From Lachnospiraceae bacterium AC2028 (GTDB taxonomy: Bacteria > Bacillota > Clostridia > Lachnospirales > Lachnospiraceae), in assembly GCA_000702685.1 (NCBI GenBank), contig JNJD01000006.1, forward strand, positions 310,001 through 374,000: a stretch of DNA of 64,000 nt. Direction: 5' to 3'. Below, piece after piece: positions 1,864 through 19,778 of the stretch. Positions within the stretch are counted from its first letter, which is position 1. Every line of letters starts with the position of its first letter. The notes under the pieces are model-generated. The model had not been told where the DNA came from. It did not search any database and worked only from the letters and a program-made list of their open reading frames with translations. Position numbers and translations under genes: made by a program.

Positions 1864-1874
1864 TGAAGGATGCT

Positions 1875-2726: not shown

Positions 2727-3234
2727 GACGGACAACCTCAAAACGGTACATCTTCACTCCGTTTTCGGTAAGGTCCAGTCCGGCTTTCTGTTTTGCGATA
2801 GCGATCTGCTCTTCAACGGTATCAACTCCGTCAAGATCCGGAAGGAGAAGTCCGCGCTTATACCCCTTCTCAACAATGACACCGTAACGCTTTACATCAA
2901 GCTGATCGGGTGAATCGATGGGCTCTTCGGGACTGAGGACATCGACATTTATCTCAAGGCTGTCAAGCTCTTCGGTGCGGATCGGATGGAATCTTGGGTC
3001 TCTGGTCGAAGCAGCAATGGCATTTGAAATTATTTCTTCGGCAATATTTTTGCAGGTCGGAGCTATGGTTCCTATGCAGCCGCGGAGTTTTCCGCCTTCA
3101 TGAATGGATACAAACGCTCCGGCCCTGCCGGTTTTCATTTCATCGGTAAGTTCCTCATCCGCGGGAACATATACTTCGTTTTTGCTGATGATCAGATCAA
3201 TGGTCTTTTGGGCAAGTTCAACGTATTTGTCCAT
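2719..3234 (-). CDS. amrA: AmmeMemoRadiSam system protein A (AMMECR1 domain)
   Basis: A single AMMECR1 domain of 171 residues, close to the usual size for stand-alone bacterial members. The hallmark LRGCIGT is present near residue 50, followed by the family's conserved [13 protein letters not shown] stretch. AGGAGG sits 6 bases before the ATG. It lies 13 bases after amrB and overlaps the start of amrS by 8 bases, so the three are very likely translated from one message. In human cells AMMECR1 is a disease-linked protein of unknown biochemical function; the bacterial protein is equally uncharacterised. The conserved cysteine and acidic residues suggest a binding or catalytic pocket, but that is inference. 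Confidence 0.92.
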
Positions 3235-4332: not shown

Positions 4333-5304
4333 CTAAACAAATATTCCTCTTTGAAGAACATCGTGAGTGCGAAGAAGCCCGACCACTTTATTGTCTCTGC
4401 TTAAAACCGGAAGAACAGATAATTGTTTTTCCCTGTTTTCCATTGTACGCAAAGCATCTACGGCAAGCATATCTTCATACACAACAACAGGCGACTTTGT
4501 CATTACATCATCTACTATGGTCGAGTACATATCTATATTCTTTCGCATATAACGCTTTAAATCGCCATCTGTAATAAGGCCTTTGAGTTTCAATTCGGAA
4601 TCCGTGATCATCACGCCGCCATGTCCGGTTTCGCACAATACTTCAACAGCCTTTTCAAGAGATTCGCCGACAGAGATTCTCGGAATCATTTCATCAGATA
4701 TCATAAGGTCGGAAACCTTTGTATTTAATTTCTGTCCCAAAGATCCGGCCGGATGATATGATGCAAACTCTTCTTTCTTAAAATTTCTCATCTTAGAAAC
4801 AACAACAGCAATTGCATCACCGATCACTAGTTCCGCTGTTGTGCTGCTGGTAGGAGCCAATCCGAGCGCCCCTGCTTCTGTCAGTTTAGGAATAGATACC
4901 AGATAATCAACATACTTTCCCAAAGTCGAATCAGGACTCGAAGTAATTCCAACCATCTTCAACCCAATAAGTCTGACTGTAGGAAGTATCTGACAGATTT
5001 CTTTGGTTTCGCCACTATTACTGATAAAGATGATAACATCATCCTTTGTAAGCATTCCGAGATCACCATGCTGAGCATCTGCGGGATGAAGCACATATGA
5101 AGGAATTCCCATACTGCTCATAGATGCAGAAATCTTCCTTGCAATATGACCGGGTTTACCCATTCCGCAAAGAACGACTTTTCCATTACAGTCATTTATC
5201 AATTTGATTACATCAACAATGGATTCATCGAGATATGCTTCTACGCTTTGAAGTTGTTCTATTTCGATATCAAAAACATTTTTTACTTCTTTTAAGATAT
5301 CCAT
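4333..5304 (-). CDS. kdsD: D-arabinose-5-phosphate isomerase
   Basis: It interconverts ribulose 5-phosphate and arabinose 5-phosphate, the first step toward Kdo. The protein has 323 residues. An N-terminal SIS domain (about 30-180) contains GMGKPGHIARK and the characteristic HPADAQHGDLGM, and two CBS domains follow from about residue 205 to the end. This is the full-length KdsD/KpsF architecture. The ATG at 5304 has GGAG 7 bases upstream and lies 2 bases past the kdsA stop codon; the upstream in-frame TTG at 5310 lacks such spacing. Its place next to kdsA and kdsB decides between KdsD and the related sugar isomerase/GutQ proteins. No terminator is obvious after the stop. Confidence 0.9.
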   Translation of the reverse strand: MDILKEVKNVFDIEIEQLQSVEAYLDESIVDVIKLINDCNGKVVLCGMGKPGHIARKISASMSSMGIPSYVLHPADAQHGDLGMLTKDDVIIFISNSGETKEICQILPTVRLIGLKMVGITSSPDSTLGKYVDYLVSIPKLTEAGALGLAPTSSTTAELVIGDAIAVVVSKMRNFKKEEFASYHPAGSLGQKLNTKVSDLMISDEMIPRISVGESLEKAVEVLCETGHGGVMITDSELKLKGLITDGDLKRYMRKNIDMYSTIVDDVMTKSPVVVYEDMLAVDALRTMENREKQLSVLPVLSRDNKVVGLLRTHDVLQRGIFV

Positions 5305-5306
5305 TA

Positions 5307-6086
5307 TCAATCTCCAAATGAAGAAACAACATCATTAACAGAAACGATCTCATTCATAAATTCTTTGAATTCAGACAGTCGAATCATATTTGGGCCATCA
5401 GACAATGCATTATCCGGATCCGGATGAACTTCAGCAAAAATACCGTCAATCCCAACTGCGCAGGCAGCTCTTGCAAGATACTTTGCATAATCACGATTTC
5501 CGCCGGTGGATGTCCCATTCCCTCCGGGTTTTTGCACGCTATGTGTAGCATCGAAGATGACAGGATAACCAAATTCCTTCATCACAACAAGTCCGGTCAT
5601 ATCAACAACAAGATTGTTGTATCCGAAAGAACTTCCTCTCTCGCAAAGCATTATGTCCTTATTTCCAGTCTCTTCAATCTTCTGTATTACAGGTTTCATA
5701 TCCCAAGGAGCAAGAAACTGAGCTTTCTTCACATTAATACGCTTACCAGTTTTTGCTGCAGCTATAAGCAGATCTGTCTGTCTGCATAGAAAAGCCGGAA
5801 TCTGAATTATATCCGCAACATCTGCAACAGGTTCCGCTTGCCAGTGTTCGTGAATATCGGTGGCAATCTTAAGCCCCAGTTCTTCTTTGACTTTCTTAAG
5901 TATTCTGAGTCCTTCCTCAATTCCCGGTCCTCGGAACGAATTGATCGAAGTACGGTTTGCCTTATCAAATGAAGCTTTGAAAAAGAAATCCACATCAAAT
6001 AACTCTGTGATCTTCTTAAGTTCCTCAGCTTCTTCCATAACAAGTTTTTCATTTTCAATTACACAAGGTCCGGTAATAATAATCAT
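5307..6086 (-). CDS. kdsA: 3-deoxy-8-phosphooctulonate (Kdo-8-P) synthase
   Basis: It condenses phosphoenolpyruvate with arabinose 5-phosphate. The 259 residues match the usual family length. Signature blocks are KASFDKANR near residue 38, the arabinose-5-phosphate site GNGTSTGG, and AEVHPDPDNALSDGPN. The N-terminal GPCVIE carries cysteine 8 where the metal-independent E. coli enzyme has asparagine. With the downstream His, Glu and Asp also present, this predicts the metal-dependent class typified by Aquifex KdsA. AGGAGG precedes the ATG by 8 bases. The gene overlaps the preceding reading frame by ATGA, indicating coupled translation in a kdsB-GT-kdsA-kdsD run. Confidence 0.95.
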   Translation of the reverse strand: MIIITGPCVIENEKLVMEEAEELKKITELFDVDFFFKASFDKANRTSINSFRGPGIEEGLRILKKVKEELGLKIATDIHEHWQAEPVADVADIIQIPAFLCRQTDLLIAAAKTGKRINVKKAQFLAPWDMKPVIQKIEETGNKDIMLCERGSSFGYNNLVVDMTGLVVMKEFGYPVIFDATHSVQKPGGNGTSTGGNRDYAKYLARAACAVGIDGIFAEVHPDPDNALSDGPNMIRLSEFKEFMNEIVSVNDVVSSFGD

Positions 6087-7336
6087 TCCGACTGCCTCCT
6101 ATAATTCAAAATTGTCTCAAGTCTATCTTTTTTATCTACAGATAACACTTCCTCAGAGATTCCTCTTTCGGATAAATAATGTTTTATATGGTACATGTAG
6201 ATCTTATCCGGCGAATTCTCATGAATTCTCCAATCAATATATTTTTTATCAAAAGCAATATCGAAAGGTGCCAAATAGACAAGAAGTAAATAATTAAGTG
6301 AAATGTCATCAATCTCCGACAGTTTCTTATCAGAAAGATTGTCCTTCAAGAATAATTGAAACGCCGAAATATCATGCGAATATACCGTGCGTCCCAGCAA
6401 CAATGCCTCAAGAAGAATATTAGATCCATGAGCTGCTATTCTCTTGCATTTCAAAATGAAATCACTTGAAAATTCTGAGTCATCATTATTTTTCAACGTA
6501 TATTTAGCTTGATACGGCTCATCGCCCGGATGATTTCTGAGGAGAATATCATCTTCAGAATAATGGTTTCGAACATCCTGGATCAACTCAATATCCGTAT
6601 ATGAAGATTCGGCAAATAACGATGGAACAAAGGGATGAACTGTTGCTATGCCCATTTCATACTTTGGATCATAGACATTTTTAAGAAGATCCAATCTGTT
6701 ATTATTCAAAAAAATAGCCAGAAGTTCTTTTTTTGTTAATACATCAATTAGGCCATTGTTAACTAGATCTCTAAATTTTCGGACTTCAACATTTGATATA
6801 GCATCACCATACATCCTATGTCGTGTAAAATAGCAAGTCGGAAAATATTCAGGAAACCTCAAGGCAAATTCCATGGTTATAACCGGAACTTTCATCTTCT
6901 GTGCCAGATAATCGATGCTTTTATAATGTGCATTCCACGTGATAAAACCTTCAATTTCTCCATGAATTTTTTTAATTTCTTTAGCTAATCGGAACAATTC
7001 GTTTTCCAAAACACGGTTGCGATTTTTCAGTAGATCAATCTGAGTTCCGATTCTTGATCCGGTCTTTACATATTCGTCATTAAAAACGGCATTATTAATG
7101 TAATATACAGGGACTTCTTTTTCTTCTTCAACAGACAATACTGTATACTGATGAGCAGAAGTAAACCGTTCATCATATACATTACTTATCGGTCTTTTGT
7201 CTCTCCATTCCTTATACTCACATGTAGTGATCAAAACCCAACCATTCTCATGTGCATGATAAAGAAATTTCAAGTAAACCCATAGGTATCTATAATCATA
7301 AAATTGGCATGGATCGATAACTATAGGAACAAACAC
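6083..7336 (-). CDS. glycosyltransferase-like protein, possible Kdo transferase
   Basis: A 417-residue soluble protein I cannot name firmly. It lies between kdsB and kdsA, overlapping kdsA by 4 bases and starting with GTG one base into the kdsB stop (TAGTG). Near residue 270 it has LLRNHPGDEP and near residue 305 AAHGSNILLEALLLGRTV. An HP motif followed by a small-residue nucleotide-binding loop is the pattern of the KpsC/WbbB (GT107/GT99) Kdo transferases. The large protein at 8104-10683 shows the same two motifs. I infer that it uses CMP-Kdo, because the three Kdo genes surround it. Another CMP- or UDP-sugar transferase is the main alternative. Confidence 0.5.
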   Translation of the reverse strand: MFVPIVIDPCQFYDYRYLWVYLKFLYHAHENGWVLITTCEYKEWRDKRPISNVYDERFTSAHQYTVLSVEEEKEVPVYYINNAVFNDEYVKTGSRIGTQIDLLKNRNRVLENELFRLAKEIKKIHGEIEGFITWNAHYKSIDYLAQKMKVPVITMEFALRFPEYFPTCYFTRHRMYGDAISNVEVRKFRDLVNNGLIDVLTKKELLAIFLNNNRLDLLKNVYDPKYEMGIATVHPFVPSLFAESSYTDIELIQDVRNHYSEDDILLRNHPGDEPYQAKYTLKNNDDSEFSSDFILKCKRIAAHGSNILLEALLLGRTVYSHDISAFQLFLKDNLSDKKLSEIDDISLNYLLLVYLAPFDIAFDKKYIDWRIHENSPDKIYMYHIKHYLSERGISEEVLSVDKKDRLETILNYRRQSE

Positions 7337-8076
7337 TATACCCAGCCTTCCTTTATCATGGATTCTTCTACAGCTTTCAATTGCTCAGGAGTATCAACGC
7401 CAATAGTTTCACCATTAGTTTCTATGACACGAATTTTAAATCCGTTTTCAAGACATCTTAACTGTTCAAGAGATTCTGATTTCTCCAAGAATGATTTAGG
7501 TAAATTAACGAAAGTTTTCAGGAAGTCCTTTTTATACGCATACATCCCGACATGTTTATAAACTTTGTATTCATCTAGATCATTCCTCTTATACGGAATA
7601 GGATACCTCGAAAAATAAATTGCATCGTTACTGGTGTCGGTAATCACTTTCACAACATTCGGGTTATCTATATCTTCCTGATCATCAATCCGTTTCCTCA
7701 ACGTAGACATCAACACATTTTCATCTTCAAACGCTGACAAAACCTCCTCGATCATTTGAGGTCTTATCATAGGTTCATCGCCTTGTACGTTAACAATTAT
7801 ATCGGCATCCATATCTTTACTTGCTTCAAAAATCCTATCAGTTCCGCAAGAACAATCTCCGGTCATAATTGCCTGTCCGCCAAATGATACAACCGTATCA
7901 AAAATCCTCTTATCATCGGTCGCTACATAAACATCTTTAATCAAAACAACTTTCTTGGTTTGTTCATAAACCCATTGAATCATGGGTTTCCCATTTACAA
8001 TCGCAAGTGGCTTGCCAGGGAATCTTGATGACTGATAACGTGCCGGTATAATTGCTATGATATTTCTTGTATGCAT
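7336..8076 (-). CDS. kdsB: 3-deoxy-manno-octulosonate cytidylyltransferase (CMP-Kdo synthetase)
   Basis: It activates Kdo with CTP to give CMP-Kdo, the donor for Kdo transferases. At 246 residues it is of normal size. Diagnostic stretches are PARYQSSRFPGKPL at residues 11-24, NVQGDEP near residue 97, and YFSRYPIPY near 153. The TAG stop overlaps the GTG start of the next gene by one base. With kdsA and kdsD this gives three of the four steps of Kdo supply; the phosphatase KdsC is not seen in the window. The HAD protein at 1-1863 is much longer than KdsC and is not a good substitute candidate. Confidence 0.95.
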   Translation of the reverse strand: MHTRNIIAIIPARYQSSRFPGKPLAIVNGKPMIQWVYEQTKKVVLIKDVYVATDDKRIFDTVVSFGGQAIMTGDCSCGTDRIFEASKDMDADIIVNVQGDEPMIRPQMIEEVLSAFEDENVLMSTLRKRIDDQEDIDNPNVVKVITDTSNDAIYFSRYPIPYKRNDLDEYKVYKHVGMYAYKKDFLKTFVNLPKSFLEKSESLEQLRCLENGFKIRVIETNGETIGVDTPEQLKAVEESMIKEGWV

Positions 8077-8103: not shown

Positions 8104-10683
8104 TCAACGCATTGAGGCATTCATTTCATCGATTACTTTTATAATCATTTCAGAATACCTATTCTTAAATACAGATTTAGAAAAATAAATATCAAACGCC
8201 TCAATATTTCTCTGTTTTAAATCCTGAATTTCATTCACATTAAATATTCTATCCGAGTTTACACCCATCGAATCAGAAAAGATGACATTATCGCGCACAT
8301 TGTATTCCTTATTTCCACCAACATCAGAAAGAATCAATGCACATCCATTTTTCATAGCTTCTAAGGTCGATAAGTCAAAAACAGATAATCTGTGAAGCAT
8401 TATATATACATCCGAAACAGAATATAAGTACTGAACTTCTGCATATGTCAGTTTATCAAATGGTACAAAGCTAAAACTGGAATACTCCTGCTCAAGTAAT
8501 CTTGCAGACTCATAAACCGTATCTTTGTTAGGGCCTTTCCCTACACAGATCCACCTGATCCTTTTATCAGTCTTATCAAGAGTGTTATGAAAAAAGCGAA
8601 CCACTTCATCTTGACCTTTTGATGAAGTTATTGTTCCAACCGAAATAAAAGTTATTGTATCAGGTTCTTTTTTTACTGAAGATATTTTCTTAGGAGTAAC
8701 ATCCGCATATATAGTGTTATATAAAGTCGGTCCATTGTTATATTGTCTGCAATGTATATACTTACTAGCAAAAAACGAATTTTCAGCACCTTTACTAGGA
8801 AAGCAAACTAAAACAGCATTTTCTACAGCGAGTTTCTCACATTTCTGAATAATACTCATTTCATGCTTTGTGATTGACTCTCCAAGAGCTATCTTCTCAT
8901 CAATTCTCGAGCCCTGAGTATGAACAACAAATATGTATTTTTTGTTCATTAAATACAAACCATACGCTGTCGCATAGTCATGGCATACATATAATTTATC
9001 ATGTTCATTTTTTGTTTTTTCAATAACAAAACAAACAGCAGCATACAATGGAATAAGATTACTCTTCGGATTAATCATTCTATTATATGTACTATATGTA
9101 AAGTATCGATTCTTTAATGTATGCCAAATACCATCTTTTTCACTATAGTTATACGTTATAGGAAAACCCTTAATATCATTTCCTATAATAGATTCCATAG
9201 CCGACAAAACGGCACCACCACCGCCCCTTCCACCATGAGGTGCATGTGGTCTATATGTAATACCTTTAATAGAAGTAATCTTTTCATCGGCTCTATGATT
9301 ACTTTTTGCGACTTTAGACAGCTTATATAAAACTATATCCGGGTTAAAAAATACACTTGTCTGAGCCAACGAAAAAATCTTAGTTTTTGTATATCTTTTA
9401 ATTGGATTATTCTCAAAAGCCGGTTCATTTCTAAGAATACCAATTGTAGTTTCCAAATTTCTCACTTCATTTTGAAGTAAGCATACTTGATTTTGTAAAT
9501 TGTCATATACTTCTTTTGAGACGTAGGATTGAGGTCTATTTATCGACTTTTCCTCAGATTTTTTTCTAAATAACTTAGAAGCCGTAATGATGGTCGGATC
9601 CAGATCTGTATAGCTCCAATAATCGTTAAATGTCGCTCTAATCCTGTTAGGAATTGTGCTCATAATAAGATTTTCACAGTTGTTATTTACAGAAATAAGA
9701 TCCTGAAAACAATCTTTCCAAAATACAGGATTAATAAAATCATTATATATTGATAGATATGTCTCTTCAGAATAAGGACAATTCAAATCGTAATCAAAAT
9801 GGAAGCAAGGACGATGTAAAAATCTCACTTCCTTTCCAAAATAAGGTGCTTCATACAACACACCCGAAGTGATTGCATATACCTTTTTTAAATTGTCATT
9901 TGAAATTATTCTATATGTGTTCCAATCAGAAGGGCAAAGCTTTATGAAGTCAAATTGCTTTAAGAAAGAATAAATCTTTCCCAACTCTTTATTATATGGA
10001 TGTGCTTTATAGTAAACACAATCATACATATGTCCCATATTTCTTATTTCATCTTCATAATCCATTATAGATAGACATCTACCATTATTATATAAAGCTT
10101 TATCTATATTTGTTTGTCCTGCTATTAACGCAGAATTCGGGAGAATATTATATGGATTAAATGCCGTGATTGCCTTTATTGCATTAGCCTGAATGTTAAA
10201 TAACTTTTCGTTAATCTGATATTTCTTCATTCGATCAAATATAAATGATGAATTTGTAGACATGCCAAATAGATGATCATCATAAAATCGAATAGGATGA
10301 ACGGTGATATCAATATAAGGAATATTTAGAAAATTATGAATTCGCTTAAAGATTTGAGGCATTTCTATGTATATCACAATAGAATCCGCGATATAACTTG
10401 AAAAATAATCAATTGCATTTTGTGGAATAATACTCAAATCATATATCTTAAGCCATTCTTCATCATCGAGATATTCTCCACCACACAACTTGTAAAAAAT
10501 CGAAGGAGAAAAAGAAGTGTTGTCGGTATTTAATTTATGCACCGACAAATTTGTAGACTCTTCAAGTTGATATTTTAAAAATTCAAAGTATTTATTGATT
10601 CTTTTTTCATGAAAATTAATAGTTTTACCAGATTCGATTTTCGGTCTCAGCAAATCTCCAGAAATCAAAATCTTGTTGATCAT
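8104..10683 (-). CDS. two-domain glycosyltransferase (Kdo-transferase-like + GT4)
   Basis: A protein of 859 residues. The N-terminal part (about 1-370) has YYKAHPYNKELGK and, further on, AITSGVLYEAPYFGK, the same HP and small-residue loop pair seen in the protein at 6083-7336. A short coiled coil (about 390-420) follows. The C-terminal part (about 470-850) is a GT4, GT-B-fold glycosyltransferase with SVGTITSSKGQDE, CVGKGPN and a donor-site glutamate in STLEAMKNG. I chose the ATG at 10683, with AGGAAGG 9 bases upstream, over the GTG at 10737. Fusing a Kdo-type domain to a second transferase recalls WbbB of Gram-negative O-antigen clusters, where the Kdo domain terminates the chain. The gene is strikingly A+T rich compared with the export genes upstream. 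Confidence 0.72.
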   Translation of the reverse strand: MINKILISGDLLRPKIESGKTINFHEKRINKYFEFLKYQLEESTNLSVHKLNTDNTSFSPSIFYKLCGGEYLDDEEWLKIYDLSIIPQNAIDYFSSYIADSIVIYIEMPQIFKRIHNFLNIPYIDITVHPIRFYDDHLFGMSTNSSFIFDRMKKYQINEKLFNIQANAIKAITAFNPYNILPNSALIAGQTNIDKALYNNGRCLSIMDYEDEIRNMGHMYDCVYYKAHPYNKELGKIYSFLKQFDFIKLCPSDWNTYRIISNDNLKKVYAITSGVLYEAPYFGKEVRFLHRPCFHFDYDLNCPYSEETYLSIYNDFINPVFWKDCFQDLISVNNNCENLIMSTIPNRIRATFNDYWSYTDLDPTIITASKLFRKKSEEKSINRPQSYVSKEVYDNLQNQVCLLQNEVRNLETTIGILRNEPAFENNPIKRYTKTKIFSLAQTSVFFNPDIVLYKLSKVAKSNHRADEKITSIKGITYRPHAPHGGRGGGGAVLSAMESIIGNDIKGFPITYNYSEKDGIWHTLKNRYFTYSTYNRMINPKSNLIPLYAAVCFVIEKTKNEHDKLYVCHDYATAYGLYLMNKKYIFVVHTQGSRIDEKIALGESITKHEMSIIQKCEKLAVENAVLVCFPSKGAENSFFASKYIHCRQYNNGPTLYNTIYADVTPKKISSVKKEPDTITFISVGTITSSKGQDEVVRFFHNTLDKTDKRIRWICVGKGPNKDTVYESARLLEQEYSSFSFVPFDKLTYAEVQYLYSVSDVYIMLHRLSVFDLSTLEAMKNGCALILSDVGGNKEYNVRDNVIFSDSMGVNSDRIFNVNEIQDLKQRNIEAFDIYFSKSVFKNRYSEMIIKVIDEMNASMR

Positions 10684-10729
10684 TTGTAAATACCTTCCTA
10701 TACAATCAAATATATATATAGCATTAGAT

Positions 10730-12724
10730 TTATGCACCTACGGCATTATCCGATTCTTCCATATGGCGATACGCTTCACATACTTCCTTGGGATTACCTA
10801 CCATTCTGAGTTCTCCCTTTTCAATCCATACGCACTTGGAACAATTATCCAAAATCGTATTCATGCCATGGCTAACAATAAGAACAGTGCTGCCACCGTG
10901 GATCATTTCCTTGATGCGTGCGAGGCTCTTCTTTCTGAAAAATTCATCTCCTACGGAGAGGACTTCATCAAGAATTAGTATTTCGGCAGCATCGCCTGCG
11001 GTTGCAATGGCAAAGCCGAGCCTGGATACCATGCCGGATGAGAAGTTCTTGACCTTCTCTTCCATGAAATCCTGAAGTTCAGCAAATTCAACTATGTCGT
11101 TATAGTGCTTATCGAGAAATTCTTTTGAATAACCGATAATGGAACCGTTCAGATATACATTCTCCCTTGCGGTAAGTTCCATATCAAATCCGGTACCGAG
11201 AGTAAGGAGCTGTACCTTCTTTCTGTCAACGATAACCTTACCGGATGTGGGTCTGAGCGCACCGGATACGATCTTGAGAAGTGTACTCTTACCGGAGCCG
11301 TTGGTTCCTATGATACCGACGACTTCACCTTTATATACGTCAAAGCTTACATGATAGAGTGCAAAGAGCCTGCGGTACTCTATCTTTCGCTTTACGGCCT
11401 GAATGAGATAATCCTTAAGTCCCGAAGGGTTATAAGTCGAAAGGTGAAATTCCATCGTGACATCCTTAACGGAAATGACACGCTCTCTTTCATCGGATAC
11501 GATCATTCCGTCAACATCAACAAACTGAATTTCATCCTCCGCATATGAATCCGATATTGGAGTATAGTCGATGTCCGCTTCTTCGCTATCATGATCAGCT
11601 ATTTCAGAAGTTTCATTCACTGCCTGTGCATCTGCAGGTTCTTCAAGCTGTGAAACAGCATAATACTCATCAGGCTTTTCATACAATCCGTCGTCTTCGG
11701 GAGCTACTTCACCCTCTTCCGGAAGATCGTAAATATACTCATCCTCAGAATGCGGATTCTCAAGTTCATCAATATACTGCTGTGCTTCTTTCTTTCTGGC
11801 CTTAAACTCATCTCTTGAAAGCCAGAGAAGAAGTATCAGTGAAACGGCGGAGATAACAAGAACAATTGCAAGAAGAAACGAATAATCCGTTCTCACAGGC
11901 TCCGGATTATCACCCGTGGCAAATACCTGCGGATTGGCATCATATATATTGGTCGGTTCGACCTGAATGACCTCAATGTTATCTATATCTTCGGGAATAT
12001 CGATCTGAACAGATCCCGATAAATGATAATCTCTGTCTTCGGCACTCGTAGTTTCATCGGCTGAATTATCATCCTCAGAAATAACTGTATCCGTTTCAGC
12101 AGTCTCATCGTCCGATGCGGTATCCTCTTCTTCAGATACAGTCTCTTCCGCAATCACTTCCGGTTTTTCTTCCTTTTCTGGTTCGGGAGCAGCAGCCGCC
12201 TGAATGGTAATGGGAGCCGATGCATCTCTTGTGATAGTGCATTCAACAGGTGGTGCCGCGGGAACCACAGTACCGTCTTCAAGGATCACATCGGGGAATG
12301 CATATGTGTATGCATAATTGGCCACCGCATATATCGATGTGTAGCACTGAGTCTTTGCACGGAACTTCAGAAGAAACTTCCTGGAATTGGCACCGTTACC
12401 AACTTCATCAACAATAAACACAAGGCCGTTAGCCGCATCGTAACCCGAACCGCCCTCGACATATTCAAGACAGTTGGGATCGTAACCGACTGTAAGACTG
12501 CAGGCACCGACGCCTTCAACACATTTTACATATACGCCGACTTTGAATTCCTTGCCTTCAACAACCTCATAAGAGGTCGATCCGAATGCGGCATATGCAT
12601 CGGTAGCACATACATTTTCTGTCGGGATGAGCACATTGCAAACAGCCGTAACCAACAAGATTACAGCCATAAACATTCGGCATATTCTGTTTTTCCAAAC
12701 AGTTTTCTTCAAATCTCTATCCAT
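10730..12724 (-). CDS. cohesin-like/TM/ABC-ATPase fusion of a Wzt/TagH-type exporter
   Basis: A protein of 664 residues with an unusual build. Residues 1 to about 42 form a signal peptide. Residues 44-175 form a beta-rich cohesin-like domain (ACSLTVGYDPNCLEY is typical). A long acidic Glu/Asp/Ser linker follows to about 275, then a membrane helix at about 280-302 with a basic cytoplasmic stop, a second acidic linker, and an ABC ATPase at about 418-660. The ATPase has Walker A GTNGSGKST near 471, signature FSSGM, Walker B ILILDEVLS and an H-loop in VSHGM. It is closest to the O-antigen/teichoic-acid exporters (Wzt, TagH). B. subtilis TagH has its ATPase first and its outside domain last, so this protein is the mirror image. 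It follows the permease gene by 6 bases. Confidence 0.88.
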   Translation of the reverse strand: MDRDLKKTVWKNRICRMFMAVILLVTAVCNVLIPTENVCATDAYAAFGSTSYEVVEGKEFKVGVYVKCVEGVGACSLTVGYDPNCLEYVEGGSGYDAANGLVFIVDEVGNGANSRKFLLKFRAKTQCYTSIYAVANYAYTYAFPDVILEDGTVVPAAPPVECTITRDASAPITIQAAAAPEPEKEEKPEVIAEETVSEEEDTASDDETAETDTVISEDDNSADETTSAEDRDYHLSGSVQIDIPEDIDNIEVIQVEPTNIYDANPQVFATGDNPEPVRTDYSFLLAIVLVISAVSLILLLWLSRDEFKARKKEAQQYIDELENPHSEDEYIYDLPEEGEVAPEDDGLYEKPDEYYAVSQLEEPADAQAVNETSEIADHDSEEADIDYTPISDSYAEDEIQFVDVDGMIVSDERERVISVKDVTMEFHLSTYNPSGLKDYLIQAVKRKIEYRRLFALYHVSFDVYKGEVVGIIGTNGSGKSTLLKIVSGALRPTSGKVIVDRKKVQLLTLGTGFDMELTARENVYLNGSIIGYSKEFLDKHYNDIVEFAELQDFMEEKVKNFSSGMVSRLGFAIATAGDAAEILILDEVLSVGDEFFRKKSLARIKEMIHGGSTVLIVSHGMNTILDNCSKCVWIEKGELRMVGNPKEVCEAYRHMEESDNAVGA

Positions 12725-12730
12725 AACAGA

Positions 12731-13507
12731 CTATATTGTCTGCATTATCTTATTTTCTCTGGACTTGAATACGATCATTCCGAAAAGAATACTTCCCACA
12801 CACCAGATAACAAGTCTTATCCAGACCCAGTTCTCGGGAAACTGTCCATACATAACGCATTCTCTGGCAAACAGTATCTGGAGATATACAGGATTCCAAT
12901 TGATCACCAGCTGCATTGTTTCCGGCAGACTTTCAACCGGATAAAAGATTGCAGACAGATACATCAACAGTGTCAGGAAAATCCCGTAAAGATATTTGAT
13001 ATCAGCAAAAAACACATAAAGCGTTGCCAGAAAATATCCCATTCCAATTGCAAATAGAAGTGCAAATACAATGCATATCGGGAAAAGAAGCATTGTAAAA
13101 CTAGGTTTGATCCTGAATATCACAAGCATCAGCACATAAGCTATGCAGGTATATCCAAAATTCACAAGAGCGGTATATACTCTCGAAAGGATAAATGTAT
13201 GCTTGGGAAGCTTGGCTTTTATAAGCAGGCTCTTATTATCTACCAGCGCAGTCATTGCGGCATTTGTCGCCCCGCTGAAAAGTCCCCATATTGTCTGACC
13301 TGTAAGATAATAAATCGGGAAGTTCTCAATCTTCCTTTTAAACATCGTCGAGAAAATAAGCGACATTACGACCATCATAAGAAGCGGATTGAGCACGCTC
13401 CAGATGATGCCCAGCGAGCTTCTCGCATACTTCCTCTTGATCTCACGGGCTGTCAGTTCCCTTATAACGAACACATATTGTAATATGTCGCTGAATTTAC
13501 CCTTCAC
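12731..13507 (-). CDS. ABC-2 polysaccharide export permease (Wzm/TagG type)
   Basis: The membrane half of the exporter, about 258 residues and six predicted helices. It has the family's cytoplasmic entry LTAREIKRKYARSSLG followed by IIWSVLNPLLMM, and the conserved NWNPVY near the C-terminus. The frame is open upstream to 13618, but a GTG at 13507 overlaps the preceding stop as GTGA, has an AAGGAAG upstream, and gives the normal Wzm length, so I place the start there. It pairs with the ATPase fusion at 10730-12724. The substrate should be a lipid-linked glycan finished in the cytoplasm, in keeping with the neighbouring glycosyltransferases. Confidence 0.88.
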   Translation of the reverse strand: MKGKFSDILQYVFVIRELTAREIKRKYARSSLGIIWSVLNPLLMMVVMSLIFSTMFKRKIENFPIYYLTGQTIWGLFSGATNAAMTALVDNKSLLIKAKLPKHTFILSRVYTALVNFGYTCIAYVLMLVIFRIKPSFTMLLFPICIVFALLFAIGMGYFLATLYVFFADIKYLYGIFLTLLMYLSAIFYPVESLPETMQLVINWNPVYLQILFARECVMYGQFPENWVWIRLVIWCVGSILFGMIVFKSRENKIMQTI

Positions 13508-14904
13508 GCTCTGATGCTCTTCCTTATCTCGGTGACCGTTTTGGATGCTCTTTCCGAAAACAGGCACATTTTTCTTTTTAATCCGGTGCAGGAATCGGTA
13601 ATGCTGCCCTCCGGCCATCCGCTTGCGGGAATGTCACCCTCTCCGATCCCGCTCTTGATGAACATCTTCCTGAAAAATGAATTCTTCTTCAGATCTTCAT
13701 CCGACCATTTTCCGGCAAGCTTATAATCCGAATCCGCAATAACATCATCATTGAATAACAGCTTTCCGAATGCTCTGCTCTCTTCCGGTATCGGTTCACT
13801 CATAAGAGGCTTAAGAAGTTCCTCACAGATCCAAATAAGATCATGATTATGGATGGTAGCAATATCATCCTTTAAGGAATCAGCCAGCCTTACGGAATAA
13901 TCCTTCATATAATCCGTTATCCTCAGGATATAATCCCTATTCGGATTTCCCTCGGGCTTAAGAATCGGAACGATCTTTTCGCCCTGTCTCTCATATCCGT
14001 ATGTCATGGATTCAGGCGAGGAACAAACTGTTTCAAACAGGCAGACACTGAAGCGGTTCTTTCGTCCGAGATTCATCACGCCCGCTCCGGGAGAAAAATA
14101 AAAACTGTCATATCTTTCTTCGGATACACCTTTCGGAACGGAATAAAGTCCGAAATAATATCCTTCAAGTTTTTCTCCCACGCCTATAAGTTTATTCAGA
14201 CTCTTCTGAACCGTACCGATCCATCCGCTGTCAACTATCGCAGTCCCGGTTTCACGAAGGCTGTCCTTATCCAATCCTTCCTGCTTAAGATAATCCAGGG
14301 CAGGTTCAAGTTTATCTTTCGCATGTACATGCACAGCTTCAAAAAATTCCTTGCTGTTCAGAAGTCTTTTCTTTATCTCAGAGATCTGTCGGTTATCCAG
14401 CTTTTCGGAAGTTTTCCCATCGAGACCGCATATCTTGGCAAAATGCTTTATCTCTTCATCTGAAAGCGATGCTCTTTTCATCATCTTTTCAAAAGAAAGA
14501 TCCAGAGCACCGAGGCATATTGTATCAAGGCAGTCATCCGGGCTTAAAGCATATTCCGCGGCACGCAGGGAATATCTGGAAACATGGATATATGAAAGCG
14601 ATATCTCAGGTGCGATAACAGGTCCCAGGATCTGCGCGGACTTATAAAACAGATAAGCATCCCTTGCGCAGAATACCAGCCTTTTAAAGCCTCTCTTTTT
14701 GGCATCGGTCAGAACATAGAAGACAAATGCCGATATAACGGGAGCAAACACACAGATAAACAGACTGTCCTCCGCAGGAAGTTCGGCATCCTCTTTGCAT
14801 GCGCTACGAAGACATTCTTCTGTAGCTTCCGAGAATGCAGGGATCCTGCGCACGATATTCAGATACTTCGATGATCTGTTCTCCGTCACCCGGCTCTGCT
14901 GCAT
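13504..14904 (-). CDS. polysaccharide-cluster protein, related to the C-terminal half of the HAD protein
   Basis: A 466-residue protein of unknown function. It lacks the HAD motif I of the protein at 1-1863 but shares its second-half motifs: LVFCARDAYLF near residue 72 (compare LFLSRDG) and AIVDSGWIGT near 225 (compare SVDIGWAG). Such modules recur in glycan clusters, often behind a HAD domain, so I infer a role in decorating or assembling the exported chain. The ATG at 14904 has GAGGGAGAG 5 bases upstream. The gene overlaps the end of the GT2 gene by 101 bases, which is long for this region; a later start would shorten the overlap, but the ribosome site supports the one given. Confidence 0.6.
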   Translation of the reverse strand: MQQSRVTENRSSKYLNIVRRIPAFSEATEECLRSACKEDAELPAEDSLFICVFAPVISAFVFYVLTDAKKRGFKRLVFCARDAYLFYKSAQILGPVIAPEISLSYIHVSRYSLRAAEYALSPDDCLDTICLGALDLSFEKMMKRASLSDEEIKHFAKICGLDGKTSEKLDNRQISEIKKRLLNSKEFFEAVHVHAKDKLEPALDYLKQEGLDKDSLRETGTAIVDSGWIGTVQKSLNKLIGVGEKLEGYYFGLYSVPKGVSEERYDSFYFSPGAGVMNLGRKNRFSVCLFETVCSSPESMTYGYERQGEKIVPILKPEGNPNRDYILRITDYMKDYSVRLADSLKDDIATIHNHDLIWICEELLKPLMSEPIPEESRAFGKLLFNDDVIADSDYKLAGKWSDEDLKKNSFFRKMFIKSGIGEGDIPASGWPEGSITDSCTGLKRKMCLFSERASKTVTEIRKSIRA

Positions 14905-15739
14905 TTAAACTCTCCCTCTTAGCCTGTGCTCTTTTTCCCTCACGGCGCTTGATTGCAGCGATAAGGCCGGAAGGAACGATGCACGCAATGATCGGTCTGA
15001 GAACATGTATCCATCCGAATGGAAAAAGAATTCCCATCTTCCTGTAACCGTAAGCCCTGACTCTGGCTTCATTGAAACGGTTTTTCAGGTTGCGTGATCT
15101 GTATGAAGCATTGCATTCATGGTATCTGAAAAGAGGTTCCGGGATGTTATAACCTTTGAGCCCCTTTTGCATGAGCCTCATAAAGATCTCATAATCTTCG
15201 CATCTGTAAGTTTCGTTTTCTTCAAGATAGCCTGCGAAGGAATCGAAGACCTCTTTTCTGAACATTACGGACGGATGGATATAAGGTGAAAATCTGTAGT
15301 AATCTTTCTTTTCCGGGACTTCAGGCATGAACCTGCATCCCCAAACTCCGTTCTCATCAAACAGTTCGGCTCCGGTACCGCACCATGCGTATCCGGGATT
15401 GTTTTCAAGAAAAGCAACCTGCCTTGCAAAACGCTCGGGAAGGCATTCATCATCCGCATCCATTCTTGCGATGTATTTTCCCTTTGCAAGTTTTATGCAT
15501 TCATTAAGTGAAAATGCGAGTCCTCTGTTTTCATCACGTCCCGCAAGAATGATCCTGTCATCCAGTTCGGGGAGTTTCTTAAGAGCGGAAGCGGCTTTGT
15601 CTTCCGAACCGTCATCCCAGATGATGAATTCGAAATTTCTCAGGCTCTGGTCCAGCACGGAACGCACGGCTCTCTCAAGAGCATCCGTATCCCATTGATT
15701 GTAGACTCCCATAATAACGGAGATGAGTGGTCCGTTCAC
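14804..15739 (-). CDS. family 2 glycosyltransferase
   Basis: An inverting GT-A glycosyltransferase of 311 residues. The N-terminus ISVIMGVYNQ, the IIWDDGSED donor site near residue 40, the DXD-type ARMDADDE near residue 95, and an ED motif in CEDYEIFMRL near residue 180 place it in GT2. The start is GTG with a GGGGG/GAAG element close upstream. Its C-terminal 60 residues are basic then acidic and overlap the next gene. It probably adds one sugar to the lipid-linked glycan exported by the Wzm/Wzt pair; donor and acceptor cannot be told from sequence. Confidence 0.85.
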   Translation of the reverse strand: MNGPLISVIMGVYNQWDTDALERAVRSVLDQSLRNFEFIIWDDGSEDKAASALKKLPELDDRIILAGRDENRGLAFSLNECIKLAKGKYIARMDADDECLPERFARQVAFLENNPGYAWCGTGAELFDENGVWGCRFMPEVPEKKDYYRFSPYIHPSVMFRKEVFDSFAGYLEENETYRCEDYEIFMRLMQKGLKGYNIPEPLFRYHECNASYRSRNLKNRFNEARVRAYGYRKMGILFPFGWIHVLRPIIACIVPSGLIAAIKRREGKRAQAKRESLNAAEPGDGEQIIEVSEYRAQDPCILGSYRRMSS

Positions 15740-15760: not shown

Positions 15761-16918
15761 TTACTTTCCGGATTCGACGGTAAGGATTGCTTTCTCATAA
15801 ACAGGCCGCATTATCTTGCGGACTTCACCGCACGTAAAATCAAATGCGGAATCCCTGCATGCACCCGACATTCTTTTTACTAGACCGGGATTACTTTTAA
15901 GCTTTATTATCGCAGCGGCATATTCATCGGATTTGCCGGATCTGCAGATAAGTGCATTCACACCTTCGCGGGCATATTCACCGGTACCGCGTGTATCCGA
16001 TGCGATAAGCGGAACCCCGCACAGAAGTGCTTCAACCGCGGCAACTCCGAATCCTTCTCTTTTCGAAGGAAAAGCAAATACATCCGCAGTCTGTAATATC
16101 TCTTCCATATCGGTCCTGTAACCGATAAGTCTGACTCTGTCTTCAAGGCCGTACTTTTTTATCAGCCCGTTAAGATATTCTTCATTGGGACCTTTGCCGC
16201 AGACAGTGTAATAAATATCTTTATCGGGTATCGATGCTATCGCTTCGATGATAACTTTCTGATTCTTGTTGTCATTGATCTCGGCCGCAGTGACTATGTG
16301 AAATGCATCTTTCGGAACGCCTATCTCACTTCTCTTTTGGTCACAGATCTCAGGTATGGGTCTGAATTTCTCACAGTCAACACCCACACCGCCGATCTTG
16401 GTAACTCCGGCCTTCTGTCTTATATGGAATCGAAGAGCTCTTGTATAGTCTTCGCTGTTTATCGTGATTATATGATCGGTCCACCGTGCCAGATATTTCT
16501 CCGCTGAATAATAAAGGATCCAGTTTTTTAGCGGTGCACCTTTGTAAAAATGAAATCCATGTGCCGTATATATCACATACGGATGCTTCTTCGAAAATCT
16601 GGCCGCAACTCTTGCGGTCACGGCGCCCATAGGATTGTGGCAATGAATGATATCTATATCACATTCATTGATGATCTTTTTCAATTCCTTTATTGCACGA
16701 AGATTGGACTTGACCGAAAGAGGACTTTTTCTGACTCCGATCTGATGAAGTTCAATTCCCTGCTTTATCAGATCTTCTTTATCGAATACATAAACGGGAT
16801 TATCAAAATTGGACGCATAGCTGACTTTACATCCCAGCTGCTGCGCCAGCAGACAATCACCCGATTCAAACTGCGGCAAAAAGCCGCTGATAGTTGTAAC
16901 AAAAAGGAAATTTGTCAT
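15761..16918 (-). CDS. family 4 glycosyltransferase (EpsD/PglA-like)
   Basis: A retaining GT-B glycosyltransferase of 385 residues. It shows HCHNPMGAVTARVAA and YTAHGFHFYKGAP in the acceptor domain, a GKGPNEEYL loop, and the donor-binding E-x7-E in SKREGFGVAAVEAL. The HGFHFYKGAP block is typical of Firmicute capsule transferases that act early on undecaprenyl-linked intermediates. The frame is open to 16969, but the ATG at 16918 begins directly with the Rossmann strand and has a G-rich run 10 bases upstream, so I use it. It is the promoter-proximal transferase of the run. Confidence 0.85.
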   Translation of the reverse strand: MTNFLFVTTISGFLPQFESGDCLLAQQLGCKVSYASNFDNPVYVFDKEDLIKQGIELHQIGVRKSPLSVKSNLRAIKELKKIINECDIDIIHCHNPMGAVTARVAARFSKKHPYVIYTAHGFHFYKGAPLKNWILYYSAEKYLARWTDHIITINSEDYTRALRFHIRQKAGVTKIGGVGVDCEKFRPIPEICDQKRSEIGVPKDAFHIVTAAEINDNKNQKVIIEAIASIPDKDIYYTVCGKGPNEEYLNGLIKKYGLEDRVRLIGYRTDMEEILQTADVFAFPSKREGFGVAAVEALLCGVPLIASDTRGTGEYAREGVNALICRSGKSDEYAAAIIKLKSNPGLVKRMSGACRDSAFDFTCGEVRKIMRPVYEKAILTVESGK

Positions 16919-16933
16919 AATGGTAAAGCCCCC

Positions 16934-16958
16934 GCCTGCAGGACCTGTGCCTGCAGGC
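16934..16958. repeat. perfect 9-bp inverted repeat with 7-base loop
   Basis: GCCTGCAGG at 16934-16942 and CCTGCAGGC at 16950-16958 form a strong G+C-rich hairpin between the surface-protein gene and the GT4 gene. No T run follows on the minus strand (it continues GGGGGCTTT), so it is not a standard intrinsic terminator. It may protect the 3' end of the short surface-protein message or dampen read-through. Confidence 0.5.
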
Positions 16959-16979
16959 CAAAGGCTCACTGTTTAGATC

Positions 16980-17663
16980 TTATGCTCTGCGATAATTCCT
17001 GAAGCAGATGATTGCTCCGGCCATTGCGGCAAGAACGATGAGTGCCATGAAAGAATAGGTAACTCCGGTCTTGGGTGATGCTGCGGGAGCATTGGTAGAA
17101 ATCTTGACTATGGAAATAGGTGAAAGGCTTGAAACCTGGAATGCAACGGAACCGGTAGATACTGCAACGGGCTTGATGAGCTCCCAGTTGGTTCCGTTAA
17201 AGTGAAGAATGGCAATGGTATCGCCTGCGGCAATCTGTCCGTTGGTCATGACGATATTGTACATTCCGGTTGAATCCTTGGTAGCGGTAGTAGGATCAAC
17301 ATCAACGGTTGAAAGGATATTGGCAGCAACAACGCTTCCCTGTGTGGTGGCTGCGGTTACAAGATCGGGATTGCCGAGGAAATATCCGATCGCAGCAACA
17401 TCCCTGAGGACAGTATTCTGTACGGCAACAGCGGCTGCCTTAGCGGTTGAATCGGATACCGCAGAAACCTTAAATCCCTCTGAAGTAGCTGTAAGGATAG
17501 CATACTGTGCGGGAGTTGCGGTGTCAGCAACAGCGGTTATGGATGTCTGAGTTGAAACGGGAGGCTGTACGGTACCTACAGCGGGGCTTGCGGCAAATAC
17601 GGTGATCGCATTGAGCATCATCAGCATTGCAGCGGAGATAATTGCCAGAACCTTCTTTTTCAT
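16980..17663 (-). CDS. small SPKTG-anchored surface protein
   Basis: A 227-residue exported protein rich in Ala, Thr, Val and Ser. It has a signal peptide (about 1-25, ending VFAA), a low-complexity beta-type body, and a sorting signal at the end: SPKTG, a hydrophobic helix, and the basic tail RNYRRA. SPxTG/PPxTG motifs are the known targets of class B sortases in Clostridioides difficile, and a class B sortase lies two genes upstream. A near-ideal AGGAGGG stands before the ATG. I do not recognise the body; its simple composition fits a spacer or abundant coat component rather than an enzyme. Confidence 0.8.
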   Translation of the reverse strand: MKKKVLAIISAAMLMMLNAITVFAASPAVGTVQPPVSTQTSITAVADTATPAQYAILTATSEGFKVSAVSDSTAKAAAVAVQNTVLRDVAAIGYFLGNPDLVTAATTQGSVVAANILSTVDVDPTTATKDSTGMYNIVMTNGQIAAGDTIAILHFNGTNWELIKPVAVSTGSVAFQVSSLSPISIVKISTNAPAASPKTGVTYSFMALIVLAAMAGAIICFRNYRRA

Positions 17664-17740: not shown

Positions 17741-18841
17741 TCATACAGGTTCATAAAAGAGCTTTACTATCAGATCCTGAAGCGCATCATCGTCGGCATA
17801 GAACTCTTCGAACATCTCGCCCTGAAGTGTCTCACCCTGTACGGAATAGATATTGTCCGCATCGAATGAATAATCCATGGTTTCCGTTGCAAGATAGGTA
17901 TAACTGCTCACATTCAGATCGGTGACCATGTACTTCTGGAGAGTTGTAAAAAGAGAAACCGCAACTGTAATGTCTCCGTTCACTCTCTCCCTTGCCGTGA
18001 CGGCAAATGTGGTCAGATACTGTTTCTGTCTTTCCTGCCTCACAGAGTTGGAATCGAATTCATCCTCATGTCTGAGACGTACATACCAATAAGCTGTGTC
18101 TCCCATCAGGGTAACGACCTGACCTCTGTGAAGATCCATGTCATATTCGGGATATACGATGTCATCAAGCACTTCGAGTGTCACACCGCCGACCGCGTCG
18201 TTGAGTTCCGGTATGGCATCCATGCTTATAGCGGCATATGCATGTATCGGAATATTGTGGAAGAACCTCGATACTGCCTTGACCTGATGTTCGGCACACG
18301 CAACTTCATCGTTACCGTATCCGTGCTGAAGCGCTATCTGCTCTTTCAGTATGCCTCTGTAATTACCTTCATCATCCCAGACATCAACATCGGCCATAGC
18401 ATTTCTGTTGATGCTGACGACTTTAATGCTTTCATCATGCGGATTCAGGAGAACCAGAAAGAGTGCATCCGCCTGGCCGCCGTTGTTATACGAATCCGGA
18501 TTGCTTTCCCAGCTCTGTCCGCCAATCTCCGTCACAGTCTCTTTATCAAGTCCCATAACAAGGATGCAGATAAGGTCTTTGTTCGGAGCGTATTCTTTTC
18601 CGTTATAAACGATATGACCTTCTTCTATTCCGGTATCCGGCGATCCGTTTTGTACCGCTTCGCCTACGTCTGCCGTATCGGATTCAAGTCCGGAGCTGAG
18701 TTCGTACAACGATCTTCTTCCCATCGATCTTACGAGAAGGAAAATACCGGTGATCAGTAAAGCGATAACTATCAGCGTAAAAACAAGCCGTCCCCAGGCA
18801 GTAAAGGTTTTCTTTTCGGTTATGATCTTATCTTCTATCAC
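17741..18841 (-). CDS. LytR-CpsA-Psr (LCP) family glycan-attachment protein
   Basis: A 366-residue membrane protein with one N-terminal helix (about residues 18-40) and an extracellular LCP domain. Family features are ILVMGLD, a VVSINRNAM stretch, the conserved HAYAAISMDAIPELNDAVGGV, and YVRLRHED..SVRQERQKQ near the C-terminal third. LCP enzymes move lipid-linked polymers onto peptidoglycan or protein. The frame is open to 18946, overlapping the sortase gene, but a GTG at 18841 with GAGG 6 bases upstream lies 17 bases after the sortase stop and gives a normal N-terminus, so I prefer it. Its position makes it the likely ligase for the glycan exported by the Wzm/Wzt pair. Confidence 0.88.
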   Translation of the reverse strand: MIEDKIITEKKTFTAWGRLVFTLIVIALLITGIFLLVRSMGRRSLYELSSGLESDTADVGEAVQNGSPDTGIEEGHIVYNGKEYAPNKDLICILVMGLDKETVTEIGGQSWESNPDSYNNGGQADALFLVLLNPHDESIKVVSINRNAMADVDVWDDEGNYRGILKEQIALQHGYGNDEVACAEHQVKAVSRFFHNIPIHAYAAISMDAIPELNDAVGGVTLEVLDDIVYPEYDMDLHRGQVVTLMGDTAYWYVRLRHEDEFDSNSVRQERQKQYLTTFAVTARERVNGDITVAVSLFTTLQKYMVTDLNVSSYTYLATETMDYSFDADNIYSVQGETLQGEMFEEFYADDDALQDLIVKLFYEPV

Positions 18842-18857
18842 TTCCCGCCTCGCGTGC

Positions 18858-19778
18858 CTATGGGTTAAGCAGTACTCCCGTAACCAGGAATCTCTTTGAA
18901 GCGTCATGATCCGTCGTGCAGGTAGAAAGAGTAATGATGCGGTCATCTACCGTTACATCGATGTCATGACGAATGTTCGCAAGATCCGAACTCGTAAGAT
19001 CCATATTGCTGATATTTCTCAAGTACTGCTCGAATATGTAATCATTCTTGACGTCAAAATTCAGCAGCAGATGGATCGACGGATATATGTATGCGGCATA
19101 GATCTCATATACAAGTGTCCTGCCGTCTTCCGTGTAAATGTAGATATAATGCGGTTCACTCACCATGTCGGGATTGCGGAAGTTATGCAGAGTCGAGAAC
19201 ATGGTTGTGTTATCCATATTGTGGCCGTAGATAACGGTATTGGGATCGGTGAAATCCTTGCTGTTATAGTTCTCCGTATATATGACACCCGGAAAACCGT
19301 ACGAGCCGTCAAGATTGTGGTTCAGGTAGTATTCGTTGTTGCTCGGATGCTGAAGCACCGGATAATCCACGCTTGTTCCGGGTACGTAGATCCACGCATA
19401 AATATCCGGATTGGTCTGATGAAGCTCGTCCCAGTCAATGTTCTTGCCGGGAGCATCGGATACGGCTTCGGGGATCTCCTCTTCTTCATTGCCGCTTACA
19501 TCACCTTCACCGGATGCCTGAAGAAGTCCCTCGGGTGAAAGACCCTGCGGTGCATCCTCCGTATCGGGAACATCATTAACCGGATCGGCGGGATCCTGAG
19601 GTTGCTCATCACTTACGGCATTTACATTTTCAGACAATTCACGGTAAGTGTTTTCCGCATCGATACGATTCTTGTATCTTACCGCAATGTAAACAGCGCC
19701 TATAACTGCGGCTAAAGCGAGAAGCATTCCCGCGTACAACCATATTTTATTTCCGGAGCCTTTATTATTTGAATACAT
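18858..19778 (-). CDS. srtB: class B sortase
   Basis: A cysteine transpeptidase of 306 residues that anchors surface proteins to the wall. It has a membrane helix at about 12-33, an acidic linker at about 50-115, and the sortase barrel. The catalytic residues are visible: His186 in VIYGHNMD, Cys287 in TLSTC, and Arg296 in SKRFLV. The inserted helix region and TLSTC favour class B. Its probable substrate is the SPKTG protein at 16980-17663. No clear ribosome site precedes the ATG, but the start gives a clean membrane anchor. It is the first gene after the promoter at 19822-19850. Confidence 0.93.
   Translation of the reverse strand: MYSNNKGSGNKIWLYAGMLLALAAVIGAVYIAVRYKNRIDAENTYRELSENVNAVSDEQPQDPADPVNDVPDTEDAPQGLSPEGLLQASGEGDVSGNEEEEIPEAVSDAPGKNIDWDELHQTNPDIYAWIYVPGTSVDYPVLQHPSNNEYYLNHNLDGSYGFPGVIYTENYNSKDFTDPNTVIYGHNMDNTTMFSTLHNFRNPDMVSEPHYIYIYTEDGRTLVYEIYAAYIYPSIHLLLNFDVKNDYIFEQYLRNISNMDLTSSDLANIRHDIDVTVDDRIITLSTCTTDHDASKRFLVTGVLLNP

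Follow-up and report, generated by a model that had tools for sequence, protein, structure and literature searches.

Here, we describe a protein from Lachnospiraceae bacterium AC2028 in which the ATPase of an ABC exporter is joined in a single open reading frame to an extracellular cohesin-like domain. The gene lies on the reverse strand at positions 10730 to 12724 of the 64,000-nucleotide stretch of DNA that was analysed (hereafter the window). Based on sequence comparison and structure prediction, we tentatively propose that the protein may power a Wzm/Wzt-type exporter of a wall glycan and that its cohesin-like domain may serve outside the membrane as an adaptor that would bind the attachment machinery. 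To our knowledge, it is poorly understood how a glycan passes from an ABC exporter to the enzyme responsible for anchoring it in the Gram-positive wall.

The reading frame is open over 664 codons and encodes 664 amino acids, and all parts named here are on the reverse strand. A signal peptide (residues 1-40, positions 12605-12724) ends in V-C-A, with NVCA before and TD after the predicted end. It is followed by the cohesin-like ectodomain (residues about 41-176, positions 12197-12604), which was identified with Pfam and by profile and fold comparison, and by an acidic extracellular linker (residues 177-280, positions 11885-12196) that contains 34 D/E and 4 K/R among 104 residues. Hydropathy and charges mark a membrane helix (residues about 284-302, positions 11819-11875) whose N-terminus is predicted to be outside; five K/R are found among the next 15 residues. 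A second acidic linker, predicted to be cytoplasmic (residues 303-412, positions 11489-11818), leads to an ABC ATPase of the Wzt/TagH type (residues 413-655, positions 10760-11488). The ATPase was recognized by profile match and its motifs are complete (GTNGSGKS, FSSGM and ILILDE). Its best NCBIfam match is TagH (PRK13546) with 175.3 bits, below the cut-off of 320. Since only six residues remain after the profile match, the ATPase has no C-terminal sugar-binding domain. The adjoining gene encodes an ABC-2 permease (PF01061, 60.3 bits), and two paralogues in the same genome are found in frames of 409 and 414 amino acids. The order of signal peptide, cohesin-like domain, acidic spacer, helix and ATPase that the initial annotation had described is hence present in one frame, and the outside domain does precede the ATPase.

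As modelled, the ectodomain has a cohesin fold. The isolated domain matches the Pfam Cohesin family (PF00963) with 26.2 bits, above the cut-off of 24.1, while the whole protein scores 21.3 bits and stays below this cut-off. Cohesin is matched at E<=1 by 13 of the 14 aligned members, one of which is the protein of the window. When a profile of the members was compared with solved structures, cohesins ranked first (best 5nrk, E 0.0019), and the cohesin-like module of NagJ was matched as well (E 0.005). An AF2 model of the ectodomain, computed with 10 sequences, reached a pLDDT of 89.8 and a pTM of 0.79. Among the best 50 Foldseek matches of this model, ranks 1-16 are occupied by cohesins alone (best E 3.1e-6, TMq 0.52-0.66); TRAP subunits begin at rank 17, and BslA is among the matches further down. 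The rmsd values of these 16 cohesin matches are large (5.4-11.6), and thus the fold class is clear but the details of the binding face are not. Structure prediction and fold comparison therefore uphold the cohesin-like nature of the N-terminal domain, and it did not prove to be a different fold. The domain is conserved: compared with a close relative (L034) pN is 0.034 and pS 0.55, and it is 68-71% identical, with pS near saturation, to the copies L056-L059, for which the identity of the extracellular linker is 30-34%. Both linkers are poorly conserved, and their character varies from acidic in the window to T/P-rich in L036 and charged repeats in L039. The genome of the window has two further matches to the cohesin profile, both below the cut-off; one of these (L003) is, by eye, a membrane protein of another kind, encoded next to a MacB-type ABC gene.

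The same fusion was found in related genomes. The 22 fused entries correspond to 21 distinct uninterrupted proteins, that of the window included, because L244 is the same gene as L107. Full-length copies include L035-L040, L042, L044 and L046, which are mostly from Lachnospiraceae, and others come from the genus and family of the window. In all 22 entries the ABC motifs are intact, the ATPase profile match reaches to within 0-6 residues of the C-terminus, and 2-10 positively charged residues are located within the 15 residues after the helix; most copies have an A-X-A-like signal peptide end. It had been considered that an assembly or sequencing error might have joined two genes. In the close relative L034, whose sequence is identical to that of L005, one TAG codon indeed separates the part with the helix from the ATPase part, and the copy in L045 stops at the contig end. 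However, the 21 distinct intact copies from many genomes refute such an error, and with these uninterrupted orthologues we consider it ruled out, its remaining probability being practically nil. In a draw of 396 genomes from the family, 150 have an ectodomain match at E<=0.001, for which 140 regions were examined. The ATPase fusion is present in at least nine of the 396 (G000, G402, G360, G357, G305, G075, G179, G375 and G138), with the fused ectodomains of G375 and G138 detected only on scanning the ATPase loci. A draw at the level of the order gave an ectodomain match in 23 of 246 genomes, 10 inside the family and 13 outside; the latter match more weakly (best E 1e-11). These counts leave out the distant ATPases L048-L052 and, in the scan for helix and fusion, ATPases below 330 bits.

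The fusion gene is part of a conserved glycan locus on the reverse strand. Next to it are a Wzm-type permease (12731-13507; orthologues suggest 258 amino acids, the longest frame starting at 13618), a conserved protein of 466 amino acids without match in Pfam or NCBIfam (13504-14904), a family 2 glycosyltransferase (GT2, 14804-15739) and a GT4-type glycosyltransferase (15761-16969), the latter two identified by profile match. They are followed by a small secreted protein resembling a sortase substrate (16980-17663; hereafter PKTG protein), which ends with SPKTG, a hydrophobic stretch and RNYRRA, by an LCP (LytR-CpsA-Psr) glycopolymer transferase recognized by its profile (17741-18946), and by a class B-like sortase (18858-19778), which is above the cut-off of Pfam Sortase and reaches 148.4 bits with TIGR03064 (cut-off 153.75). 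The gene order upstream of the fusion is hence sortase B, LCP, PKTG protein, GT4, GT2, 466-amino-acid protein and permease, and the genes downstream vary among loci. In the window, this variable part is opened by a glycosyltransferase of 877 amino acids (8104-10737) and continues with KpsF/KdsD-like, KdsA, GT99-like and KdsB genes (4333-8076). KdsA, KdsB and the isomerase of the KpsF/GutQ family are above their NCBIfam cut-offs and are CMP-Kdo genes, and the GT99-like protein, which we take to be of the beta-Kdo transferase type, is above its Pfam cut-off. CMP-Kdo genes are odd for a wall-glycan locus of a Gram-positive bacterium.

Neighbours were counted on the same strand and within 9 kb for 20 fused entries, which represent 19 distinct loci as L091 repeats L046; L248 and L254 were left out because they have too little flank. 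The permease is present in all 19 loci, and GT4, GT2 and a relative of the 466-amino-acid protein in 18. Profiles detected both LCP and PKTG protein in 14 of the 19 loci, 12 of them with sortase B too. In L035 and L056 the sequence ends before the sortase gene, and L044 is a short contig. In L093, L095, L102 and L107, the 9 kb searched on the same strand contain neither sortase nor PKTG protein; an LCP missed by the profile is present in L093. These loci are not independent, as L056-L059 belong to the genus of the window and L039, L040 and L042 nearly duplicate one another.

In a tree of 70 ATPases, which omits matches below 200 bits and repeated sequences and carries a long-branch warning, all 21 fused proteins fall into one clade of 42 with a support of 100/100. 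This clade also holds the split copy, the ATPase partner of a permease fusion described below, five helix-only and 14 bare ATPases. The fused state requires 10 changes on the tree, six of them forced by starred branches, when split and permease forms are scored as not fused. Two helix-only proteins, L235 and L237, sit within starred groups of otherwise fused proteins, and this placement suggests that there probably were repeated losses of the ectodomain in which the helix was retained. In L043 the sortase, LCP and PKTG genes are all present and the ATPase is helix-only, without cohesin. A strong PKTG orthologue (>180 bits) occurs in five of the 396 family genomes, each time within about 6.5 kb of the ATPase. 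In two of these five, G423 and G256, the ATPase is helix-only, and even an enlarged profile gave no cohesin match. The cohesin arm is thus not essential to the locus, since L043, G423 and G256 have locus genes without it. In Butyrivibrio, two loci (L041 and L047) have a bare ATPase and are without sortase, LCP and PKTG genes.

The arm is not confined to the ATPase. In genome G096 the permease, and not the ATPase, carries the cohesin-helix arm as an in-frame fusion, giving a protein of 614 amino acids (L104, positions 1097-2941, reverse strand) that scores 68 bits with our ectodomain profile and 404 bits with our Wzm profile; Pfam identifies the permease but no Cohesin at E<=0.01. The neighbouring ATPase is a separate protein without predicted helix. 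This permease fusion is one case, on a contig of 3.9 kb, and the only permease frame above 600 amino acids among the permeases surveyed. The location of the arm on the permease suggests that its position at the exporter may be what matters. Nine more distant permeases are in frames of 453-530 amino acids (G061, G073, G123, G163, G219, G300, G318, G352 and G427), and these lengths hint at possible further permease fusions among them. In five capsule loci (L055, L099, L100, L103 and L106) a separate gene encodes the cohesin-helix protein and shares its strand with CpsB-, CpsC- and CpsD-like genes, which are backed by Pfam in L099. Three of them (L099, L100 and L106) also have SrtB and LCP, and a PKTG-type protein was found by profile in L099 and L106 and by eye in L100. 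Small secreted proteins lie beside the sortase and LCP genes at positions 10869-11540 of L099 and 6014-6568 of L100; their frames end at APKTGEF and APKTGE, respectively, without a hydrophobic tail.

The domain itself is far more widespread than the exporter fusion. It occurs without ATPase or permease in 137 entries; subtracting L034, L045 and the five capsule loci leaves 130 entries, representing 129 loci that have no neighbourhood of this type according to our profiles. Secreted proteins of a single cluster adjoin the domain gene on the same strand in 81 of the 129 loci (for example L186, L188 and L189). Their gene is directly upstream in 80 of 80 measured cases, with a median gap of 25 bp. 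Cohesin-helix protein and upstream secreted protein thus form a widespread gene pair in the family (81 loci among L094-L230). One cluster member, in L186, has an SH3_3 domain and a weak cadherin-like match in Pfam and looks, by eye only, like a wall hydrolase. A neighbour of an LCP-type cluster is found in 31 of the 129 loci, one member of which (L163) was confirmed by Pfam. Seven of 10 scanned cohesin proteins without orthologous ATPase contain a cadherin-like domain. A protein in L101 (9089-10885) combines TPR, leucine-rich repeat, cohesin-like and cadherin-like domains. In L053 (7965-9794) and L054 (7986-9785) the same arm is found on a low-scoring ABC-ATPase-like domain, which in L053 has, by eye, lost Walker A; profiles detected no glycan-locus neighbours in either case. 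As most relatives are cohesin-helix proteins without ATPase, the domain is not exporter-specific, which limits the conclusion that a cohesin means glycan export. Judged from these architectures, many membrane proteins carry the domain as an extracellular module, and its fusion to an exporter represents one branch of this wider family.

Cohesins call to mind dockerins, and docking of dockerin-bearing proteins had been suggested in the initial annotation. This part of the proposal is not supported. The genome of the window, which is 99.6% complete, has no Dockerin_1 (PF00404) match at E<=1, while nine of 14 control genomes match at the same threshold. PF00404 was the one profile searched in 14 genomes that have either the fusion or one of its variants (interrupted, truncated or on the permease), G375 and G138 not being among them; four match at E<=0.1 and two are above the cut-off. 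A dockerin partner is hence rejected as a general explanation, and although the fold would suit it, classical cohesin-dockerin docking of enzymes onto the exporter seems very improbable. The PKTG protein was considered as a dockerin-like partner and rejected, as its confident model (pLDDT 95.2) yielded no PDB match reaching E 0.001; the weak ones include the GAIN domains of CD97 and BAI3 and NLRP1, and Pfam gives a weak FIIND match.

We consider cohesin-type protein binding that would do without a classical dockerin. The ATPase would power Wzm/Wzt-type export of a wall glycan, with the adaptor tethered on the extracellular side. Standing where the chain leaves the transporter, the arm might bind one of the attachment proteins, with the LCP transferase and the PKTG protein as the likeliest candidates. 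LCP could then transfer the lipid-linked chain, as it emerges, either to peptidoglycan or to the PKTG protein, and the PKTG protein would in turn be fixed to the wall by sortase B. An adaptor role is argued from the occurrence of the arm on the ATPase, on the permease (L104), or as a free protein in polysaccharide loci, from the LCP-type neighbours in 31 of the other unfused loci and from the conservation of the ectodomain. A coupling of export to attachment had been proposed from the start; it fits the sortase B, LCP and PKTG neighbours, and its evidence consists of gene neighbourhoods only. Against the adaptor speaks that most unfused relatives of the domain are in other neighbourhoods, that four fused loci show neither sortase nor PKTG protein, that some relatives keep the locus without the arm, that the permease fusion is a single case and that the linkers are poorly conserved. 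A wider version, in which a cohesin-type non-dockerin adaptor is a general docking arm, carried on ATPase, permease or as free protein, that links ABC or CpsBCD export with LCP and sortase B, the polymer being fixed to the wall via a small sorted glycoprotein, is possible, but we regard it as doubtful.

The chief rival of the adaptor is glycan binding outside the cell; binding of the emerging chain had also been raised in the initial annotation. The ectodomain would then be an outside counterpart of the Wzt C-terminal domain that grips the chain against back-sliding. Cohesins have a beta-sandwich fold that resembles carbohydrate-binding modules, the fused copies with their short C-terminal ends have no room for the usual Wzt domain, and the frames of the two paralogues in the same genome would be long enough for it. 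However, the best fold and profile matches are cohesins and not carbohydrate-binding modules, and many relatives of the domain are outside polysaccharide loci, beside a secreted protein of another kind, so we consider this explanation rather unlikely. Alternatively, the ectodomain could be a passenger or stalk that the protein can do without, the useful part being the helix that anchors the ATPase. The helix-only and bare ATPases in the clade of 42 and the 10 changes of the fused state would agree with this, but the ectodomain is conserved and the arm recurs on a permease or as a separate gene of capsule loci, which makes a mere passenger improbable. It seems more improbable still that the domain is a sensor that signals the outside state of wall or glycan via the helix to the ATPase. 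The predicted type I topology with linkers on either side of the helix could be read in this way, as could the arm on the degenerate ATPase-like domain of L053 and L054, as if signalling had outlived catalysis; however, long and poorly conserved linkers fit a tether better than a rigid signal path.

The adaptor that we favour has to be seen against known exporters. Long forms of Wzt carry a cytoplasmic C-terminal glycan-binding domain, and in TagH the helix and the outside domain come after the ATPase. As in Wzm/Wzt exporters of O-antigen or wall polysaccharide, the ATPase described here is encoded beside a Wzm-like permease among glycosyltransferases; unlike them, it has no C-terminal glycan-binding domain and an outside domain is added N-terminally. 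With TagH it shares the combination of an ABC exporter ATPase with helix and outside domain, and TagH is its best NCBIfam match. It differs in that helix and domain precede the ATPase, in the cohesin fold, in the signal peptide and in a score far below the TagH cut-off. Cellulosome cohesins and the Clostridium perfringens NagJ module share the fold and a sequence stretch with the ectodomain, but here it is located on an exporter in a genome without Dockerin_1 match.

The proposed chain of events has precedents in other bacteria. Sortase B and LCP within one polysaccharide locus are also found in the srtB4 cluster of Mediterraneibacter gnavus, where both are reported to be needed for capsule presentation (PMC13121745). 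In contrast to the locus described here, that cluster has a tyrosine phosphatase, and the word cohesin is absent from the main text of the article (PMC13121745). In Actinomyces oris, LcpA glycosylates the sortase-anchored protein GspA, so that an LCP enzyme is likewise tied to a sortase-anchored protein; the available portion of this work describes the glycan pathway as unknown and does not mention a cohesin arm (PMC6381275). Sortase B and SPKTG substrates are reported for C. difficile. The natural fusion of ATPase and adaptor, together with its permease and free variants, offers a defined domain with which to look for a binding partner, and it may provide a mechanistic frame for the reported need of sortase in capsule display of one gut Lachnospiraceae species (PMC13121745).

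The claim that no such protein had been described holds in part. In the accessible open-licence literature we found neither the N-terminal order, nor the cohesin fold, nor an exchange of the arm between ATPase, permease and free protein, and cohesin and Wzt occur together as whole words only in a phylogeny paper. Fusion of an exporter ATPase with both a membrane helix and an outside domain is, however, known from TagH of TagGH/TarGH (PMC11466899). Thus, ABC glycan exporters and the outside domain of TagH are known, and the N-terminal placement, the cohesin fold and the swap of the arm among ATPase, permease and free protein seem to be new.
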